Shown piece after piece: positions 12,198 to 26,473 of a stretch of 46,174 nt of DNA (its first letter is position 1; the number at the start of each line of letters is the position of its first letter). The notes beneath the pieces are model-generated. The model had not been told where the DNA came from. It saw nothing but the letters and a program-made list of their open reading frames with translations, and ran no database searches. The position numbers and the translations under genes are program-made. The DNA is from Candidatus Zixiibacteriota bacterium (GTDB taxonomy: Bacteria > Zixibacteria > MSB-5A5 > SM23-73-2): assembly GCA_030615745.1 (NCBI GenBank), contig JAUWYR010000018.1, forward strand, positions 1 to 46,174, given 5' to 3'.

Positions 12198-13088
12198 CTA
12201 AACATGGTATCGGTCCACCACCCTCCTTATCTCCCTTGTATGCTCAGGCGTTGTTCCACAGCAGCCTCCGATGATTGATACACCTGACAAGATTAAATCT
12301 TTCGCTTTCTCTGCCATAAACTCAGGGGTCTCAGGATATACAGGTTTATTATCCTTTATTTCTGGGATACCTGCGTTGGATTGGATGATGAGTGGAAGCC
12401 TGCTGGACTCCCTGAACTCTTTGGCAATTTTTATCATATTCTCAATGCCGTTACCGCAGTTCGAACCTATGATATCTGCTCCTGCTTTTTCAAGTCCTTT
12501 CACAGCATCCTCTATGTTTGTTCCCATTACTGTGTAAAATCCTCTGGGTGTGGGATCAAATGTCATCGTTGCCATAACAGGAGTTGAGGGTGAAACGGTT
12601 TTTGCCGCTTTGACAGCAAGCCTTGCTTCTTTTAAATCGGTCATTGTCTCTACGCATATAATGTCAACGCCAGAACTGATAAGTATATTTATCTGTCTTT
12701 CAAAAGAATTGTATATTTGTTCAGGTTCGGTGTCTCCATATGGTTTTAAGAGTTTACCGCTTGGACCGCAGGAGGCGGAGACAAAGGCTCGATCTCCCAC
12801 AACTTTTCTCACTGAAAGGACAGCATTTCTATTTATTTCCTCTGTTTTATCCTCGAGTGAATAAAATGAAAGTTTTAAAGGCGATGCTCCAAAGGTATTG
12901 GTCTGAATTATATCTGCCCCGGCATCAAGATAAAGACTGGCAATCTCTTCTAAGACCTCAGGATGTGTAAGGTTAAAAGACTCTGGAGGCTCACCTGGTT
13001 TAAAACCAAAATCCATAAGCATCGTTCCCATAGCACCATCAGCAACAAGTACCTCTTCATTTTTTAACCGTTTAAGCAGATTTTTCAT
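12198..13088 (-). CDS. Homocysteine S-methyltransferase (MetH N-domain type)
   Basis: Transfers a methyl group from a methyl-corrinoid protein to L-homocysteine, giving methionine. The 296-residue barrel starts LKNEEVLVADGAMGTMLMDFG and has the three zinc-ligand cysteines of the family: C211 in GSNCGNG and C276-C277 in GGCCGTTPEH. Length corresponds to the first module of MetH standing alone. It begins one base after the end of the corrinoid-protein gene, so the two must be co-translated in close sequence; the reactivation protein and an MttB-type methyltransferase are encoded upstream in the same direction. No methyl-folate-binding module is encoded in the cluster. Confidence 0.9.
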   Translation of the reverse strand: MKNLLKRLKNEEVLVADGAMGTMLMDFGFKPGEPPESFNLTHPEVLEEIASLYLDAGADIIQTNTFGASPLKLSFYSLEDKTEEINRNAVLSVRKVVGDRAFVSASCGPSGKLLKPYGDTEPEQIYNSFERQINILISSGVDIICVETMTDLKEARLAVKAAKTVSPSTPVMATMTFDPTPRGFYTVMGTNIEDAVKGLEKAGADIIGSNCGNGIENMIKIAKEFRESSRLPLIIQSNAGIPEIKDNKPVYPETPEFMAEKAKDLILSGVSIIGGCCGTTPEHTREIRRVVDRYHV

Positions 13089-13089
13089 C

Positions 13090-13728
13090 TTAAGGTTTTT
13101 TTAAAAGTTTTTTTACAGATTCCACTGCGTCAACGCTGTCATAAGCGTATGCATCCGCTCCTATCTTTTGCGCAAATTCTTCTGTGACAGGGGCTCCACC
13201 GATTATTATTTTTATTCTGCCACTGAGTCCTTCTTCTTTCACAAGATCCACAACCCTTTTCATAACCGGCATAGTCGTTGTAAGAAGAGCAGACATACCT
13301 ATAACATAAGCACCCTCTTTTTTTGCAGTCTCTACAAATCTCTCAGGTGGGACATTGTTACCAAGGTCAATAACCTCAAAGCCTGCGCCTTTGAGCATGA
13401 TACCTACGAGATTTTTCCCTAGGTCATGCAAATCACCCTGAACCGTACCTATAACCACCTTTCCAACAGTCGGTATCCCTTCTTTGATAAAGAGTGGTTT
13501 CAAAAGATCCATTCCCGCATACATCGCCTTTGCAGCCATAAGCACGTCCGGAAGGAAAATTTCAAAAGCCCTGTACTTTTCTCCTATTATGTTCATTCCC
13601 CCAATAAGACCGCACTCCAGTATCTCTTTTGGCGGTACCTTTTCTTCTATCGCCTGTTTTGTAAATGCAAATACCTTTTGATCGTCACCTTGCTGTAAAC
13701 ATTCCGAAATCTCTTTTAATATATCCAT
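13090..13728 (-). CDS. Methyltransferase cognate corrinoid protein
   Basis: A 212-residue B12-carrying protein of the MttC/MtbC/MetH-cobalamin-module type. An N-terminal helical cap (residues about 1-85, with IGEKYRAFEIFLPDVLMAAKAM) is followed by the Rossmann domain with the base-off cobalamin motif DLHDLG; H101 is the lower cobalt ligand. The C-terminal GGAPVTEEFAQKIGADAY matches the family's nucleotide-tail pocket. It would shuttle methyl between MttB (donor side) and the homocysteine methyltransferase (acceptor side). Its ATG overlaps the stop of the reactivation gene in TAATG, a sign of translational coupling. Confidence 0.93.
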   Translation of the reverse strand: MDILKEISECLQQGDDQKVFAFTKQAIEEKVPPKEILECGLIGGMNIIGEKYRAFEIFLPDVLMAAKAMYAGMDLLKPLFIKEGIPTVGKVVIGTVQGDLHDLGKNLVGIMLKGAGFEVIDLGNNVPPERFVETAKKEGAYVIGMSALLTTTMPVMKRVVDLVKEEGLSGRIKIIIGGAPVTEEFAQKIGADAYAYDSVDAVESVKKLLKKP

Positions 13729-14471
13729 TATACTACACCTTTTTTGTTGTCAGGTCTCGATTCTCTAAAGAGCGCCCTTATCCTATCTCTGCAGGAGTGC
13801 GTTTTACACTGGTCGCAGAACGGATAAGAGTCCTCAAATTTAAAAATCTCTTTTTCCCCGATAACCATCACACCCGATATCGATTTCAAGGGTTTCATCA
13901 GAAAACTATCCAAAAGTGTAATCCCAATATCTTCTGGATGGGAAAATTCAAATAGTTTTTTCTGCCCACTTACGTGCCACCCACAATAACCTGGGCTGTA
14001 TCTCAGCATCCCTTTGGAGGGGGTAATCTCCCCTTTGTTTGATAGCAGGTTTAAAAAATGGTTTTCAACGATATCGACTGCCTTATCAGTCCCCGCTGAA
14101 GCCACAGAGTCTAACATACTTCCCAGGGCAAACTCATTTTTTTTGAAGAGTTGGTCAATTTTTTTACTTACCTTTTCTCCAATAGTAATAGCAAAGAGAG
14201 CAAGATTATCCGCCTTCTTGAATATTTTATCAAGCGGGTTTTCTTTTTCATTTAACCCTTCACCATGGTAAACAGAGCCAAATTCAGGAATGGATATATC
14301 TGAGACGATGCCCAGAGGTTGAGAAAATTCAAGAAAAAGGTCAATTGCCCTTTTAAGAAGTGTCTTCACTTTTTCAGGTAGATCATTGCCAAAAGGGATA
14401 CCCTGCGTTTTCAAGACATCAAACCTTTCTGGCTTTGCATCGTCGATTGGAATTTCGATAATCTCTCTCAT
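13728..14471 (-). CDS. MetH-activation-like corrinoid reactivation protein
   Basis: A 247-residue protein resembling the vitamin-B12-dependent methionine synthase activation domain, the module that binds S-adenosylmethionine and lets oxidised cob(II)alamin be remethylated. Seen here: ALFAITIGEKVSKKI and DSVASAGTDKAVD in the middle, then RYSPGYCGWHVSGQK, which corresponds to the conserved RxSxGYxxxP-type SAM site, and a C-terminal cysteine cluster CDQCKTHSCRDR that could hold a metal or Fe-S centre and is not part of MetH. Stop overlaps the corrinoid-protein start by one base. Function as a stand-alone activator is inferred from family and coupling. Confidence 0.82.
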   Translation of the reverse strand: MREIIEIPIDDAKPERFDVLKTQGIPFGNDLPEKVKTLLKRAIDLFLEFSQPLGIVSDISIPEFGSVYHGEGLNEKENPLDKIFKKADNLALFAITIGEKVSKKIDQLFKKNEFALGSMLDSVASAGTDKAVDIVENHFLNLLSNKGEITPSKGMLRYSPGYCGWHVSGQKKLFEFSHPEDIGITLLDSFLMKPLKSISGVMVIGEKEIFKFEDSYPFCDQCKTHSCRDRIRALFRESRPDNKKGVV

Positions 14472-14516
14472 AACATCATATCACATGAGGAAGACAATTC
14501 TTCTTGTCCTTTGTCT

Positions 14517-14537
14517 CCTCTCCCCACGGGGGAGAGG
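14517..14537. repeat. Hairpin CCTCTCCCC-ACG-GGGGAGAGG
   Basis: A perfect 9-bp GC-rich stem with three-base loop, in the 341-base gap between mttB and the reactivation gene. It may slow or partly stop transcription between them. Nothing coding is seen in the rest of this gap, which also holds the palindrome at 14564-14623. Confidence 0.7.
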
Positions 14538-14563
14538 GAGATTTTTGGATCGAATCTGCCAGA

Positions 14564-14623
14564 TCAGGGGGACCCGCCATGCACGAAGGATGTTTAATCT
14601 GTGTCAGTCGGGTCCCCTGACCC
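14564..14623. repeat. Imperfect inverted repeat with GGGTC-CCCT-GACCC core
   Basis: TCAGGGGGACCCG at the left pairs with CGGGTCCCCTGA at the right with one base missing; the right arm also folds alone as GGGTC-CCCT-GACCC (14610-14623). The CCCT-loop core is shared with 2978-3003 and 45251-45276. Confidence 0.6.
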
Positions 14624-14812
14624 AACTGGGTCGACCAGAAGTATAATTTCATGAAACCCTATTTAAAGTTACCATGTTTTGAAATTATCTTTGAATCCTG
14701 ATTTGTAATTTTGCATTTTAAATTTTAATTTTTGCATTAGATGCTGAGTTTTTCTCACTTGGGCACTGGTGCTCTTGTGCTCCTACAAACTTATCTTTCT
14801 GCCCACTCCTTA

Positions 14813-16285
14813 CTACTCACAGCTTACTTGAGGTATCGGGGGCAGGCTCTCCATACCATAACGACGAGCTTCCTTCTCCATCAGTTTGGTCAACTCCTTT
14901 TTTGCACTATCCGAAAGTTTTGAGGGAACGTAATCTTTAATCAGTTTTTCCACCTCACTGTGTGCCCTTTCCAAAAGGGTTACGCTACCTTCCTTTTGCC
15001 ATCTGGTTCTGCTTGCCCGGTCAACTGTTGGTCCTGGAAAATAAAATTCTTCCTTGAGATATCTACGGGTATGTTTTGATATAAGCAGGTGTTTTTCTCG
15101 GAGGAGTTCCTCGAATCGCGGAAGTGATGGAAAATCCTCTTTGGGCTCAATGCCTTTTATCATACGAAGGGTCATTCCGCAGATCTCGTTGTCCAGAACA
15201 AGTTTTTCAAGGCTCTGGCAGCTTTCAAAATCGAGCATCCCGGGACCTGATATGTTGTTTATGCCAGAGAGGACTGCCAGGGTTGCTCCCATTGAAGATT
15301 CGAGCCCTGCCTGATAATCGAGCTGTTTCGAATCGCTGAGTGAAATGTAAGCCTGAGTTGGCATCCCCAAAAATTTTCCAATCTCATTATATGCGCAGTC
15401 TGTCATCTGTGTTTCAACTGCACCCATTGGTGTTGTCTCATATCGGACATCAAATATGGCAGGCGAACCACCGTAAAGCAGGGGTGTGCCCGGATTGGTA
15501 AGCTGACTTATCACCACACCGCTTAAGGTCTCAGCAGTATGCTGCACAAGTGTTCCAACAAGGGTAACAGGCGCCATAAATCCTGATAATGGCATGGATA
15601 CAAATTCTACCGGGATTGAGTAATGCGCGCAGTCAACAAGATTTTGAGATGTTACATCGCTCCATTTTACAGGTGAAGTCGGGCAGCAGGAGAATATGGT
15701 AAGGGGTTTTAGAGCAAGCTTTTCTTTTGTCCCCCGAACAGCAAGCTGGAGGTCTTTCATAATATTGAATGCCTCGATGGTAAACGCTCCGGTGACAACG
15801 GGCTTTTCACAAAAAAGAAGGCTGAGGTAAAGCCGGTAACTATCCGAAATCTTTTCAGGGACATCAGCAGGTATTAATGCGGTGCTCTGAGAGGCGATGT
15901 TATTAAGCTGACTTATAACCTTTGCATAACTTATATAATCAGATGTTTTTGGTCTGTGAATCTTTTTAATATCATAATCTAAGATGTTTAATGCAGTGGA
16001 GCCGGGCGTGAAATAGACATTATATCCTGAAAAATTATGGGTTTGGTTACCAAAAACATCATAGAGTTTGAAGAAGCGTGGAACCGTTTCCAATGCCCTA
16101 TCTATAATCTTATCTGTAAGAAGGACATGGTATCTATCTATCTCCACTTTTGCCCCATGGTCTTGTAGCATGGATAAAATATTCTTGTTGTGAATTTCCA
16201 CTCCGAGTTTGCAAAGAACATCTCTTGCTTCTGAAATTATCCTCTCTATAAGTTCACCACTCAAAAATCTCACAACCGGCCTCAC
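14813..16285 (-). CDS. MttB-family (COG5598) methyltransferase, non-pyrrolysine type
   Basis: A 490-residue member of the trimethylamine:corrinoid methyltransferase superfamily. It is read through without any internal amber codon, so it belongs to the non-pyrrolysine branch, whose characterised members demethylate glycine betaine and related quaternary amines. Family blocks visible: FTPGSTALNILDYD (about 90-103), FSCCPTSPVKWS (about 199-210), GVVISQLTNPGTPLLYGG (about 250-267), and the C-terminal KHTRRYLKEEFYFPGPTVDR. The start is GTG with AAAGGAG six bases upstream. A strong sigma-70 promoter lies about 130 bases upstream. Downstream in the same direction are the reactivation, corrinoid and homocysteine-methyltransferase genes, so the methyl acceptor is probably homocysteine. 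The substrate is not determined. Confidence 0.88.
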   Translation of the reverse strand: MRPVVRFLSGELIERIISEARDVLCKLGVEIHNKNILSMLQDHGAKVEIDRYHVLLTDKIIDRALETVPRFFKLYDVFGNQTHNFSGYNVYFTPGSTALNILDYDIKKIHRPKTSDYISYAKVISQLNNIASQSTALIPADVPEKISDSYRLYLSLLFCEKPVVTGAFTIEAFNIMKDLQLAVRGTKEKLALKPLTIFSCCPTSPVKWSDVTSQNLVDCAHYSIPVEFVSMPLSGFMAPVTLVGTLVQHTAETLSGVVISQLTNPGTPLLYGGSPAIFDVRYETTPMGAVETQMTDCAYNEIGKFLGMPTQAYISLSDSKQLDYQAGLESSMGATLAVLSGINNISGPGMLDFESCQSLEKLVLDNEICGMTLRMIKGIEPKEDFPSLPRFEELLREKHLLISKHTRRYLKEEFYFPGPTVDRASRTRWQKEGSVTLLERAHSEVEKLIKDYVPSKLSDSAKKELTKLMEKEARRYGMESLPPIPQVSCE

Positions 16286-16411: not shown

Positions 16412-16440
16412 ATTATAGAACATTTTTGAATTGATGTCAA
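16412..16440 (-). promoter_or_regulatory. Consensus sigma-70 promoter for mttB
   Basis: Read on the minus strand: TTGACA (16440-16435), a 17-base spacer, then TATAAT (16417-16412). Both hexamers are perfect and spacing is ideal. It points at the mttB GTG 127 bases downstream, leaving a leader of roughly 120 bases with a weak ATGATATTTC/ATAATATCT fold but no cobalamin or SAM riboswitch I can recognise. A decayed copy of this region is at about 18350-18380. Confidence 0.8.
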
Positions 16441-23328: not shown

Positions 23329-23525
23329 AGATTTCAACTTGAAAACCTTTTTGAAACTTTCGCAAAATTCTTAAGTAAAAGATGTTAGATTTTTAATTTT
23401 GTTAATTCTTTTCAGCTTACCTTTAGAAAAGATGGTTTAGATCACAATACCAAGAAAGACCAAGAAAGATAAAGATGGATCGAGTGAAAGTTAATCTTTA
23501 GACAAAATTAATGGAGGTAAAAGAT

Positions 23526-25067
23526 ATGAACAAGATCAAGCGAAGAGAATTCTTAAAAATCGGTGCCAAGGGAGTTGCCTTTGCAACTATTCCGATTATT
23601 TTTAAAGCAAATCCTGTTGCAGCATTTTTAACCCCTCCCAAGGAAGATGCAAAGCTAAGCGATTATTACAAGCATTTCGGCGTGGACGAGAAGGTTATCA
23701 GAGATGTGATGGCTGCTGCACTTGAGCGGGGTGGGGATTATTGCGATATCTTCTTCCAGCACCGGATTTCAAATTGGATCGGCCTTGAGGACAAGGCGGT
23801 CAACAGGGCTTATAGCGATGTCGACTATGGAGTTGGCATACGGGTTATTGAGGAAGAGCAGACCGGCTATTCCTTCACCGAGGAGATTACCCCCAAGGCA
23901 ATGAAGCTTGCTGCCAAAACAGCTGCAAATATTGCCAACCAGAGTAAAACTGCACCACCTGAGGAGCTGAAACTTCACCGCGCTCCGAATTATTATCCTA
24001 TCGAGACTTTGTGGGAAGATGTAGAAATCGATCAAAAAATCCCATATCTTCAAAAGATCAACGACAGGGTCTTTAATAATGATAACAGGGTCATTAAATC
24101 CAAAGTCTGGTTTTCCGACCAAAGTGCCTACATCCTTGTGGCAACCTCTGAAGGAAGAGTGGTTTATGATTACCAGCCGATGACCTATATTTTTGTTACC
24201 TGCAATGCCGAGCAGAACGGAAAAAGGGAACAGAATTATTTCGCTTTGGGAGGTCGTCAAAGCATCGAATACTTCTCTCCAGAGAACGTAAATCGATTAG
24301 CCGATGAGGCTGTTAGCCGCACCGTGGTCTTGTTTGATGCGGTCAAGCCCGAGGCTGGAGAAATGGAGGTGGTCCTTGCAGCCGGCAGCTCGGGAATCCT
24401 TTTGCACGAGGCAATTGGGCACGGCTTGGAAGCGGATTTTAACCGAAAAAAGATCTCGATCTTCTCAGATAAGATGAACCAGAAGGTGGCGGAGAATTTT
24501 GTGACCATAGTTGACGATGGCACCTATCCAAATGCGCGCGGGGCTATCAATGTGGATGATGAAGGCAACGATACCGAGAAAACGGTTTTGGTTGAGAACG
24601 GGATTTTGAGAAGCTACCTGCATGATCATATCAGTGCCAGACATTATAAAGTCAAACCTACCGGAAACGGGAGAAGAGAATCGTTCCGCTATAACCCGAT
24701 TCCCCGAATGAGATGTACCTATATGCTAAATGGCCCTCATACTAAGGAAGAAATAATCAAAAGCGTAAAAAAGGGTTTGTACGCCGAGGCATTTACCAAC
24801 GGGCAGGTTCAAATCGGTGCAGGCGATTTTAGCTTCTATGTCAAGTCCGGTTACATGATCGAGAACGGCAAACTGACCAGGCCGGTCAAGGATGTCAACA
24901 TTATTGGTAATGGACCTAAGGTTTTGAAAGAGATAGTTATGGTAGCCGACGATTTCGAACTCGAGGACGGTGGAGGGACCTGCGGTAAATATGGTCAAGG
25001 AGTGCCGGTCTCAGACGGCCTGCCAACCACTAAGGTTTCCTCGATCACTGTCGCCGGTGTGTCTTAA
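23526..25067 (+). CDS. TldD-family metallopeptidase with Tat signal
   Basis: The catalytic half of the TldD/TldE zinc peptidase pair (513 residues). It starts with a twin-arginine signal, MNKIKRREFLKIGAKG followed by VAFATIPIIF, so the protein is predicted to be exported folded; ordinary TldD is cytoplasmic. The zinc motif HEAIGH (H294, E295, H299) lies in GILLHEAIGHGLEADF, and the late CGKYGQG block supplies the third-ligand region. Ends with VSSITVAG as in the family. The ATG at 23526 has GGAGG eight bases upstream; an ATG at 23511 precedes that RBS and is not used. tldE follows after 62 bases. Confidence 0.9.
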   Translation: MNKIKRREFLKIGAKGVAFATIPIIFKANPVAAFLTPPKEDAKLSDYYKHFGVDEKVIRDVMAAALERGGDYCDIFFQHRISNWIGLEDKAVNRAYSDVDYGVGIRVIEEEQTGYSFTEEITPKAMKLAAKTAANIANQSKTAPPEELKLHRAPNYYPIETLWEDVEIDQKIPYLQKINDRVFNNDNRVIKSKVWFSDQSAYILVATSEGRVVYDYQPMTYIFVTCNAEQNGKREQNYFALGGRQSIEYFSPENVNRLADEAVSRTVVLFDAVKPEAGEMEVVLAAGSSGILLHEAIGHGLEADFNRKKISIFSDKMNQKVAENFVTIVDDGTYPNARGAINVDDEGNDTEKTVLVENGILRSYLHDHISARHYKVKPTGNGRRESFRYNPIPRMRCTYMLNGPHTKEEIIKSVKKGLYAEAFTNGQVQIGAGDFSFYVKSGYMIENGKLTRPVKDVNIIGNGPKVLKEIVMVADDFELEDGGGTCGKYGQGVPVSDGLPTTKVSSITVAGVS

Positions 25068-25129
25068 TAGATGAAGAGATTCATTTGTAGGATTTTAACT
25101 TTGTAAACTTTAAAATTAGGGTTGAAATT

Positions 25130-26473
25130 ATGAATAAAAGACAAAGATTGGAATTAGCCCATTGGGCGGTCTCTCAGGCTCAAAAGAGTGGTGCCGATGA
25201 GGTTGCCGTGGATATCTCAAACAGTCGAGATATTGAAGTAGAATTTCGGGATGGAAAACTTGAGCAACTTAAAGAGTCAACCCAAAACTCTTTAAGTCTC
25301 TCTATTTACGCAAATAAGCGCTATTCAAGTCATTCGACTAACGATATTCGAAAAGAGTCATTAGGCAGGTTCATAGAAGAAGCGGTAGGTATGACAAAGT
25401 ACTTAAATGAGGATCCTTTCCGTTCTCTTCCAGATCCCAAGTATTACCAGGGTCAAAAGGAAATCGATTTACATATCAATGACTCCTATTATGAAAAGAT
25501 AACCTCGGAGAAAAGGGTAAAGATCGCAGGTGAAATCGAAAAGATCGCCTCAGCCCAAAGTGACAAGATCATTTCCTGCACCTCCGGTTACAGTGATACT
25601 TATTTTGAAGCGACCAAGGTAAACAGTAACGGTTTCGAGGGAAACAGGCGGAGCACCTATTTTTCAGCTGGTGCCGAAGTGAGTGTGAAAGACGATATAA
25701 CCGGAGGACGTCCTGAGGGCTGGGATTGGCGAACCGCGCACTTCTACAAAGATCTGCCCTCTGAGGAGACCTTAGCCAAGAAAGCGGTGAAGCGTGCTCT
25801 TCAAAGGATCGGACAGACCAAGCTCGAGTCCGGCTTGTATGATATGATTATCGAAAACCGGTCCGGGTGGAGACTTTTTTACTCCTTATATACTCCCTTG
25901 CAAGGGAGTTCGCTTCAGCAGAAAAGCTCCTTTTTGGAGGGTAAGCTGGGCCAAAAGATAGGCTCGGATAAGCTCACCGTAATCGATGATCCTTTTGTTG
26001 AGTTCGGCTTGGGTTCGAGACTTTTTGACGGCGAAGGTATGGCAACAAAGCGCCGGGTAATACTTGATAAAGGAGTTTTGAAATCCTATTATATTGATAC
26101 CTATTACGGGAAGAAGCTCGGTATGGAACCTACTTCGGGTTCGGCAACCAATGTTGTATTGGATTATGGCAAAAGATCTTTGGATGATATGATTAAGGAT
26201 ATGAAAAAGGGAATTCTGGTAACTGGATTCTTAGGTGGAAATTCCAACTCAACAACCGGCGATTTCTCTTTCGGAATTACAGGCATGTACATAGAGAACG
26301 GAAAAATCGTAAAACCGGTCAGTGAAATGAATATCTCCGGTAATCTGGCAGACCTTTTGAATCAACTGACGGAAGTCGGAGGCGATCCCTATATCTATTC
26401 ATCCTGGCTGCCGAGCATGTACTTTAGGCTGCCGAGCATGTACTTTAAGGATGTGCAGTTTAGTGGGATATAG
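25130..26473 (+). CDS. TldE/PmbA-family partner protein
   Basis: A 447-residue PmbA/TldE-like protein, the non-catalytic-type partner: it keeps the fold (SGADEVAVDISNSRDIEVEF at the N-terminus, GDFSFGITGMYIENGKIVKP near the C-terminus) but has no HExxxH. TldD and TldE form a heterodimer that cleaves unfolded peptides or matures modified peptides. It has no signal peptide, while its TldD has a Tat signal, so co-export as a folded complex is a reasonable inference. The C-terminus carries a seven-residue in-frame duplication (LPSMYFR-LPSMYFK). RBS is weak (TAGGG 16-12 bases upstream). Confidence 0.88.
   Translation: MNKRQRLELAHWAVSQAQKSGADEVAVDISNSRDIEVEFRDGKLEQLKESTQNSLSLSIYANKRYSSHSTNDIRKESLGRFIEEAVGMTKYLNEDPFRSLPDPKYYQGQKEIDLHINDSYYEKITSEKRVKIAGEIEKIASAQSDKIISCTSGYSDTYFEATKVNSNGFEGNRRSTYFSAGAEVSVKDDITGGRPEGWDWRTAHFYKDLPSEETLAKKAVKRALQRIGQTKLESGLYDMIIENRSGWRLFYSLYTPLQGSSLQQKSSFLEGKLGQKIGSDKLTVIDDPFVEFGLGSRLFDGEGMATKRRVILDKGVLKSYYIDTYYGKKLGMEPTSGSATNVVLDYGKRSLDDMIKDMKKGILVTGFLGGNSNSTTGDFSFGITGMYIENGKIVKPVSEMNISGNLADLLNQLTEVGGDPYIYSSWLPSMYFRLPSMYFKDVQFSGI
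26408..26449 (+). repeat. 21-bp in-frame tandem duplication in tldE
   Basis: CTGCCGAGCATGTACTTTA plus two bases occurs twice in a row (26408-26428, 26429-26449), differing at one base. It doubles LPSMYF(R/K) just before the conserved DVQFSGI end. Confidence 0.9.

Follow-up and report, generated by a model that had tools for sequence, protein, structure and literature searches.

A four-gene operon on the minus strand at 12198-16285 of the window (the whole 46,174-nucleotide stretch of Candidatus Zixiibacteriota contig JAUWYR010000018.1 that was analysed) probably encodes a four-subunit, folate-independent, B12-dependent methionine synthase. Its sequence best supports a direct route, in which the methyl group would travel from a donor to a corrinoid protein and from there to homocysteine. 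An MttB-family protein would demethylate some small compound and load the methyl group onto Co(I) of the corrinoid protein, and a zinc homocysteine methyltransferase (HMT) would move it from methyl-Co(III) to homocysteine, forming methionine and restoring Co(I). Cobalt oxidised to Co(II) would be restored by a MetH-type reactivator through reductive methylation with S-adenosylmethionine. An MttB-fed, folate-free methionine synthase of this kind was the core claim of a first-pass annotation of the sequence, and it survived attempts at refutation directed at partner protein, copy number and linkage.

The four open reading frames are co-directional, as that annotation had it, and each is supported by Pfam. 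The operon begins with the MttB-superfamily methyltransferase, a donor:corrinoid methyltransferase without pyrrolysine (14813..16285, minus strand; GTG start, 490 aa, PF06253 E 7e-69), and continues on the same strand with a stand-alone MetH-type corrinoid reactivation protein (13728..14471; 247 aa, PF02965 E 6e-9), an MtgC/MttC-type corrinoid protein (13090..13728; 212 aa, PF02310 and PF02607, E 6e-29 and 6e-20) and a stand-alone zinc homocysteine S-methyltransferase of the MetH type (12198..13088; 296 aa, PF02574 E 3e-69). The close packing described for the last three genes is exact: base 13728 is common to the reactivator and corrinoid genes, and the corrinoid and HMT genes lie one base apart. 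Between the MttB and reactivator genes are 341 bases (14472..14812) that are absent from most relatives, where the median is an overlap of 4 bases; this gap contains a strong GC hairpin (14516-14538) and matches none of the known RNA families sought in it. A consensus scan alone places a promoter-like TTGACA-17-TATAAT (12/12) at 16412..16440 on the minus strand, 127 bases ahead of the GTG that starts the MttB gene; promoter-like sites in the region are as numerous as in shuffled sequence. Riboswitches for methionine or B12 were found neither in the window region nor in 40 related loci, and were dropped as a sign of methionine control. The only repeated RNA hits (PYLIS_3) sit inside the mttB gene and are explained by conservation of its coding DNA rather than by pyrrolysine insertion.

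The MttB protein matches PF06253 over its full length (residues 3-473 of 490), which places it in the MttB superfamily (PF06253, COG5598), and it also matches structures 7xcl, 9yce and 2qne. It is not a pyrrolysine enzyme, in agreement with the first reading: the frame contains no in-frame UAG, Leu316 occupies the position of Pyl334, and the NCBIfam TIGR02369 score of 342 bits is under the cut-off of 525. Pyrrolysine was likewise rejected for two relatives whose MttB matches were flagged with TAG, one having the TAG outside the gene and the other having it in place of a codon close to the C-terminal end, distant from the Pyl position. Among small methylated compounds, N-methyl and quaternary amines are the likeliest methyl donors. 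The more specific "betaine-type" label given earlier was a guess and is not supported, because the residues proposed by docking to bind glycine betaine in MtgB (Y94, N199, R309, H345 and F/Y353; PMC6855144) are all absent from the window MttB, which is 28% identical to MttB (7xcl) and about as distant from MtgB (29%; 9yce). In their place stand S96, C201, Q311, S346 and E354, and these five are nearly invariant across 127 cluster-type MttB proteins. A conserved neighbour that might indicate the donor was sought and none was found; flanking genes vary, and only the four genes recur.

The remaining three proteins carry key residues that are invariant in 83/83 aligned sequences, with H101 and C211/C276/C277 at the positions first proposed. 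Residues 18-202 of the reactivator match Thermotoga maritima TM0269 (1j6r; E 1e-10), making this, together with PF02965, a MetH reactivation domain; beyond the matched part lies a C-terminal C-x2-C-x4-C motif (C219, C222 and C227), probably an Fe-S or metal site that would serve electron delivery. The PGY of the reactivator is also invariant in the alignments. The protein belongs to the S-adenosylmethionine-using MetH type, which counts in support of the synthase reading. The corrinoid protein, a stand-alone PF02607 plus PF02310 protein of the D-x-H-x-x-G type, has its cobalt-ligand histidine H101 in D-x-H-D-x-G. It is closer to MtgC/MttC than to MetH (NCBIfam MtgC_2 224 bits vs MetH 143 bits, under the strict NCBIfam cut-offs for named MtgC), with PDB matches to 1y80 (E 6e-55) and to 7xcn, the MttC of the MttB-MttC complex (E 2e-44). 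The HMT has the Cys triad C211/C276/C277 of the MetH zinc homocysteine module and matches T. maritima MetH (1q7m) at E 1e-54 vs E 1e-19 for betaine-homocysteine methyltransferase (BHMT).

For the families searched, this operon is the sole recognisable methionine-forming route in the window's genome, which is 98.6% complete. Profile searches of that genome for MTHFR, MetE and core-MetE found none, and the HMT is its only PF02574 match, so that a second homocysteine methyltransferase domain is absent. The methyl-tetrahydrofolate module reported missing from the cluster is missing elsewhere in the genome too: there is no methyl-folate:corrinoid module, MtrH/MtgA were not found, and no methyl-folate partner for the corrinoid protein is encoded at another locus. 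The one PF00809 pterin-binding protein is FolP rather than a MetH methyl-tetrahydrofolate module, and for this reason the cluster is not classed as MetH; neither does the genome contain a match to PF01717 (the MetE catalytic domain), as MesA-MesD would require. A flavin-free MTHFR would escape the PF02219 profile used for MTHFR, but no protein able to use its product was found in the genome.

Conservation of gene order, which the first-pass annotation had suggested examining, is extensive. There are 75 distinct complete four-gene clusters spread over about a dozen bacterial phyla. In 68 of them, the window included, the genes run MttB-reactivator-corrinoid-HMT, and the successive gaps have medians of -4, 18 and 1 bases. 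Five others, with MttBs about 50% identical, have the order corrinoid-HMT-reactivator-MttB, and two have a third order. Because complete clusters occur in three gene orders, the four parts evidently stay linked despite rearrangement. Distance matrices of the four proteins correlate within the main cluster type (r 0.59-0.75), and the window's genome, like nearly all carriers, has a single MttB gene. We found no description of this exact four-gene cluster in the open-access literature.

How often folate-dependent routes are missing alongside the operon depends on the group. Among 33 high-quality MttB-bearing genomes of the phylum, 19 have no MTHFR, MetH or MetE-type protein, and every one of these carries the complete four-gene set; the other 14 have another methionine route. 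No anticorrelation of MttB with MTHFR is seen in the phylum, and mutual exclusion of the two was rejected (Fisher p 0.48 for all genomes, 0.65 for good genomes). Both MttB and MetH/MTHFR are missing from 22 of 79 good genomes of the phylum, none of which has a MetE-type match. Since such genomes exist, absent folate routes alone are no proof that the operon makes methionine. In carriers from other groups an MTHFR-family match is usual (39/46, some matches weak), and the idea that the operon generally takes the place of folate routes in other phyla was not supported. The absence of folate-dependent routes thus holds for the window's genome and for more than half of the good MttB-bearing genomes of its phylum, but not generally beyond it.

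The closest published relative is MtgBCDE of Ruegeria pomeroyi and Phaeobacter, a split methionine synthase and glycine betaine demethylase (PMC12478193). It shares with the window operon an MttB-family donor enzyme, a stand-alone MtgC corrinoid protein and a stand-alone PF02574 HMT, and it works through one corrinoid protein, as the operon is predicted to do. The coupling of an MttB-type demethylase to methionine synthesis through one corrinoid protein, which the first reading took to be new, was therefore already published in 2025; what stands of the claim is its directness, as the published system works with a folate-binding subunit (PMC12478193). Neither activity proceeds there without that pterin subunit, MtgD, the MtgBCDE genes are often scattered, and reactivation is by RamA/DUF1638 (PMC12478193), whereas the window's genome has no pterin subunit, its four genes form one unit across many phyla, and the operon carries its own reactivator gene of the MetH type. 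Desulfitobacterium hafniense MtgB/MtgC/MtgA and Eubacterium limosum MtpB/MtcB/MtyB likewise combine a non-pyrrolysine MttB enzyme with an MtgC/MtqC-type corrinoid protein, but their acceptor is tetrahydrofolate, and the window's genome lacks MtgA/MtrH and MTHFR. With MetH and with the two-protein synthase of T. maritima (TM0268 + TM0269) the operon shares its zinc homocysteine module and a PF02965 reactivation protein that stands apart; unlike these, it lacks a methyl-folate module and has an MtgC-like corrinoid protein, MttB as predicted methyl source and the added Cys cluster. The core synthases MesA-MesD form methionine without methyl-folate, the function predicted for the operon, and MesA-C are fed by a corrinoid protein, but they are MetE-type PF01717 proteins (PMC7857596), while the operon uses a MetH-type PF02574 protein. 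BHMT shares the homocysteine S-methyltransferase family and would share the use of a non-folate donor, but is a single protein without a corrinoid, and the window HMT resembles MetH much more.

The Ruegeria precedent (PMC12478193) makes it natural to ask whether MttB here is chiefly catabolic, passing methyl groups from an amine to a folate acceptor to gain carbon or energy, and methionine is a side branch drawn from a shared corrinoid protein. The MtgC-like corrinoid protein would suit such dual use, and both functions could operate in MTHFR-bearing carriers. We nevertheless consider it quite unlikely: the window's genome lacks an MtgD-type pterin subunit, MtgA/MtrH and any MTHFR that could oxidise methyl-folate, MtrH is above cut-off in 0/133 genomes, the reactivator is of the MetH type, and the usual single MttB differs from the array of donor enzymes expected of a catabolic system. 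Also unlikely is that the operon mainly serves methyl salvage, remethylating homocysteine from spent S-adenosylmethionine or clearing an unwanted methylated by-product, with methionine otherwise imported. In favour of salvage, a methionine synthase could not be recognised in many of the related good genomes, the operon has neither a riboswitch nor another methionine gene nearby, and the conserved, unusual MttB pocket suits one fixed and perhaps endogenous substrate, but the chemistry would be the same as that of the folate-independent synthase.

It is very improbable that a split methionine synthase is made up of the HMT and reactivator, working on a corrinoid protein loaded in some other way, with MttB an unrelated neighbour or the partner of another corrinoid protein. 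MttB does lie far from the reactivator-corrinoid-HMT genes in one genome (G025), and in some Planctomycetes and Acidobacteria the other three genes are not found near MttB (the neighbours tested at these planctomycete and acidobacterial genes proved unrelated). Other clusters without MttB, however, are cut off by a contig edge or an assembly gap. In 63 of 67 main-order relatives the MttB and reactivator genes overlap or are separated by at most 30 bases, linkage persists in the two further gene orders, and the corrinoid protein fits MttC/MtgC better than MetH. The single MttB and single HMT of the genome, and the linkage conserved in 75 clusters, speak against a pairing of MttB with a different corrinoid protein.

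A folate-independent synthase of this kind would matter since methyl-folate is usually taken to be a requirement for making methionine. If the operon works as we infer, folate can be bypassed in about a dozen phyla, with the methyl group coming straight from another compound, and the predicted vitamin and nutrient needs of carriers change. Where one of these uncultured genomes carries the annotation "mttB" or "trimethylamine methyltransferase", it should not be taken as a sign that energy is gained from methylamines, because the gene occurs once, encodes no pyrrolysine and belongs to a probable methionine operon. The conserved, unfamiliar MttB pocket raises a testable question, namely which methyl donor it accepts. 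Tentatively, the operon may be a widespread, previously undescribed folate-independent synthase whose MttB, with a new and strictly conserved pocket, accepts a single fixed donor. That donor might be a common metabolite of the cell itself and not a betaine from the environment, and the synthase could for that reason be all that many uncultured lineages have for forming methionine.

Four minus-strand genes in the window, confirmed where the first-pass annotation placed them, encode in order of transcription an MttB-superfamily methyltransferase (16285-14813, GTG start), a corrinoid reactivation protein (14471-13728), a corrinoid protein (13728-13090) and a homocysteine methyltransferase, HMT (13088-12198). 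Their Pfam matches, in that order, are PF06253, PF02965, PF02607 with PF02310, and PF02574 (E 6e-9 to 3e-69); in relatives, MttB opens with the same MRP. The operon's flanks are unrelated (upstream a divergent S41 peptidase, downstream a DUF4097 protein and one protein of no recognised kind), and no methionine genes were recognised among the remaining window proteins scanned. A 341-base gap separates MttB from the reactivator (14472-14812), holds a strong GC hairpin at 14516-14538, and is missing from most relatives. Elsewhere, adjacent plus-strand genes encode a TldD/PmbA metallopeptidase pair (23511-26473).

Judged by family matches, the donor side is of methylamine type, and both acceptor and reactivator are of methionine synthase type. 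MttB shares 29% identity with MtgB, the methyltransferase for glycine betaine (9yce), and 28% with the pyrrolysine-containing methyltransferase for trimethylamine (7xcl); its residue at the pyrrolysine position is Leu316, in keeping with the pyrrolysine-free enzyme originally proposed. The corrinoid protein scores higher to the MtgC, MtbC and MttC families than to MetH, its second-best PDB match being the MttC partner of an MttB-MttC complex. For HMT the nearest match is the homocysteine module of Thermotoga MetH (E 1e-54), with betaine-homocysteine methyltransferase far more remote (E 1e-19). The stand-alone MetH reactivator of Thermotoga, TM0269, matches the window's reactivator (E 1e-10), whose C-terminal C-x2-C-x4-C motif is an addition outside the aligned region. 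On the simplest reading, MttB would move a donor methyl group to the Co(I) corrinoid and HMT would pass it on to homocysteine, while the reactivator would restore Co(II) corrinoid through reductive methylation with S-adenosylmethionine; past gene identity and residue conservation, this is what we infer. Such S-adenosylmethionine-dependent rescue of Co(II) is established for MetH. Methylotrophic systems employ RamA proteins for reactivation (PMC12478193, PMC6855144); a MetH-type reactivator is a better fit to methionine synthesis than to methylotrophy.

MttB occurs in 55 of 133 genomes from the phylum of the window, apparently Zixibacteria, nearly always as a single copy, and a wider scan of 84,980 species genomes yielded at least 553 confirmed relatives, the best 80 of which spread over some 16 named groups. 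Gene order proved well conserved: complete loci form 75 distinct clusters, 68 of them (the window and 67 others) in the window's order, with median spacings of -4, 18 and 1 bases; five run corrinoid-HMT-reactivator-MttB and carry MttBs of about 50% identity; the remaining two place the reactivator first. By record title (fallible for metagenome bins, three near-identical copies bearing three different titles), complete clusters are present in Stahlbacteria, WOR-3, Zixibacteria, Planctomycetes, Neomarinimicrobia, Bacteroidetes, Cloacimonadota, Fermentibacteria, Eisenbacteria, Acidobacteria, Electryonea, Gemmatimonadota and Aminicenantes. All 83 aligned sequences, a few of them duplicates from one genome, retain the zinc ligands, the cobalt-ligand histidine and the three cysteines of the reactivator. 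Within the main type, mean identity is highest for MttB (69%; 62%, 59% and 44% for the others). A quick tree places the window MttB with Stahlbacteria and WOR-3 sequences and apart from most of those in Zixibacteria, suggesting that the gene has moved between phyla.

Variant loci were also seen. The corrinoid-first sets (L067, L068, L070, L116, L117; genomes G101, G102, G104, G124, G125) keep the three reactivator cysteines, with PGYGGW replacing PGYCGW; L071 and L072 (G105, G106) have this second type of MttB without the other three genes alongside, that of L072 being truncated by the contig end. In L119 (5640-7484, G025) MttB is about 0.4 Mb distant from the other three genes, which follow an activator-ATPase-like gene (DIGSVSSQ motif) and genes for ferredoxin-like proteins that may supply electrons. 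Lone cluster-type HMTs, with no corrinoid protein, reactivator or MttB nearby, occur in L120, L121 and L126 (G012, G040, G011), whose genomes lack MetH, MTHFR and MttB. The MttB of L114 (9400-10905, minus strand, G116) has an in-frame TAG near the C-terminus, at a Glu codon of relatives and away from the pyrrolysine site, reflecting either sequencing error or decay; in L159 (7422-9338) the frame following MttB, which is probably chimeric through misassembly, fuses PriA helicase with a region weakly matching the reactivator.

The window genome (98.55% complete, 0.83% contamination) encodes one PF02574 protein and one PF06253 protein, both from the operon, and lacks PF02219 methyl-folate reductase (MTHFR), PF01717 MetE or core-MetE, and PF02007 MtrH/MtgA. 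A methyl-folate partner encoded elsewhere had been named as one finding that would count against the proposal; among the families searched genome-wide there is none, the single PF00809 protein being FolP by length and sequence. The expected absence of MetH and MetE in carriers extends to 19 of 33 high-quality MttB-bearing phylum genomes, which lack MetH, MTHFR and PF01717 and all hold the four genes (one in two places), but the other 14 possess another route. No anticorrelation between MttB and MTHFR was seen across the phylum. Outside it, the MTHFR family is matched in 39 of 46 carriers; either the operon is usually a supplementary route in these groups, or their MTHFR works in other pathways. 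Moreover, 22 of 79 high-quality phylum genomes lack MttB, MetH and MTHFR, with no PF01717 match among them; some members probably import methionine, which weakens the argument from necessity. Eight high-quality genomes (G001, G052, G057, G076, G078, G079, G090, G091) show no methionine synthase domain among the kinds searched, and have either an unrecognised route or import. A further methionine arrangement within the phylum (G104:C16, G103:C17, G101:C168, G071:C366 and similar) sets an HMT-MTHFR fusion of 610-650 aa beside two tandem MetE-catalytic-domain proteins of about 325 aa.

The suggestion of a betaine-type donor is not supported. Docking proposed Y94, N199, R309, H345 and F/Y353 of MtgB as glycine betaine residues (PMC6855144), and all are replaced in the window MttB, by S96, C201, Q311, S346 and E354. 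Each replacement is nearly invariant among 127 sequences from many phyla (position 311 is His in six), pointing to one kind of pocket, distinct from those of MtgB and the pyrrolysine enzyme, and likely to one conserved donor. That donor may yet be glycine betaine, if bound in another way than docked in MtgB.

Coupling of MttB systems to homocysteine is not in itself new. PMC12478193 showed that in Ruegeria the corrinoid protein MtgC and the pterin protein MtgD both take part in demethylating glycine betaine and in making methionine, MtgE being the homocysteine subunit; a direct MtgB-MtgC-MtgE path without MtgD does not appear among the proposals in the sections consulted, and no description of the four-gene cluster was found in the open-access literature searched. 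The operon is confirmed as an observation, and its interpretation as a betaine-type, folate-free, MttB-fed methionine synthase is partly supported: gene identities, conserved linkage and the missing folate route in the window genome argue for the folate-free, MttB-fed core, and the replaced glycine betaine residues leave the betaine-type donor unsupported. Unlike the MetE-type core methionine synthases it would be MetH-type, and compared with Ruegeria MtgBCDE it would represent, as read from sequence, a direct MtgB-MtgC-MtgE-like path in a self-contained unit.
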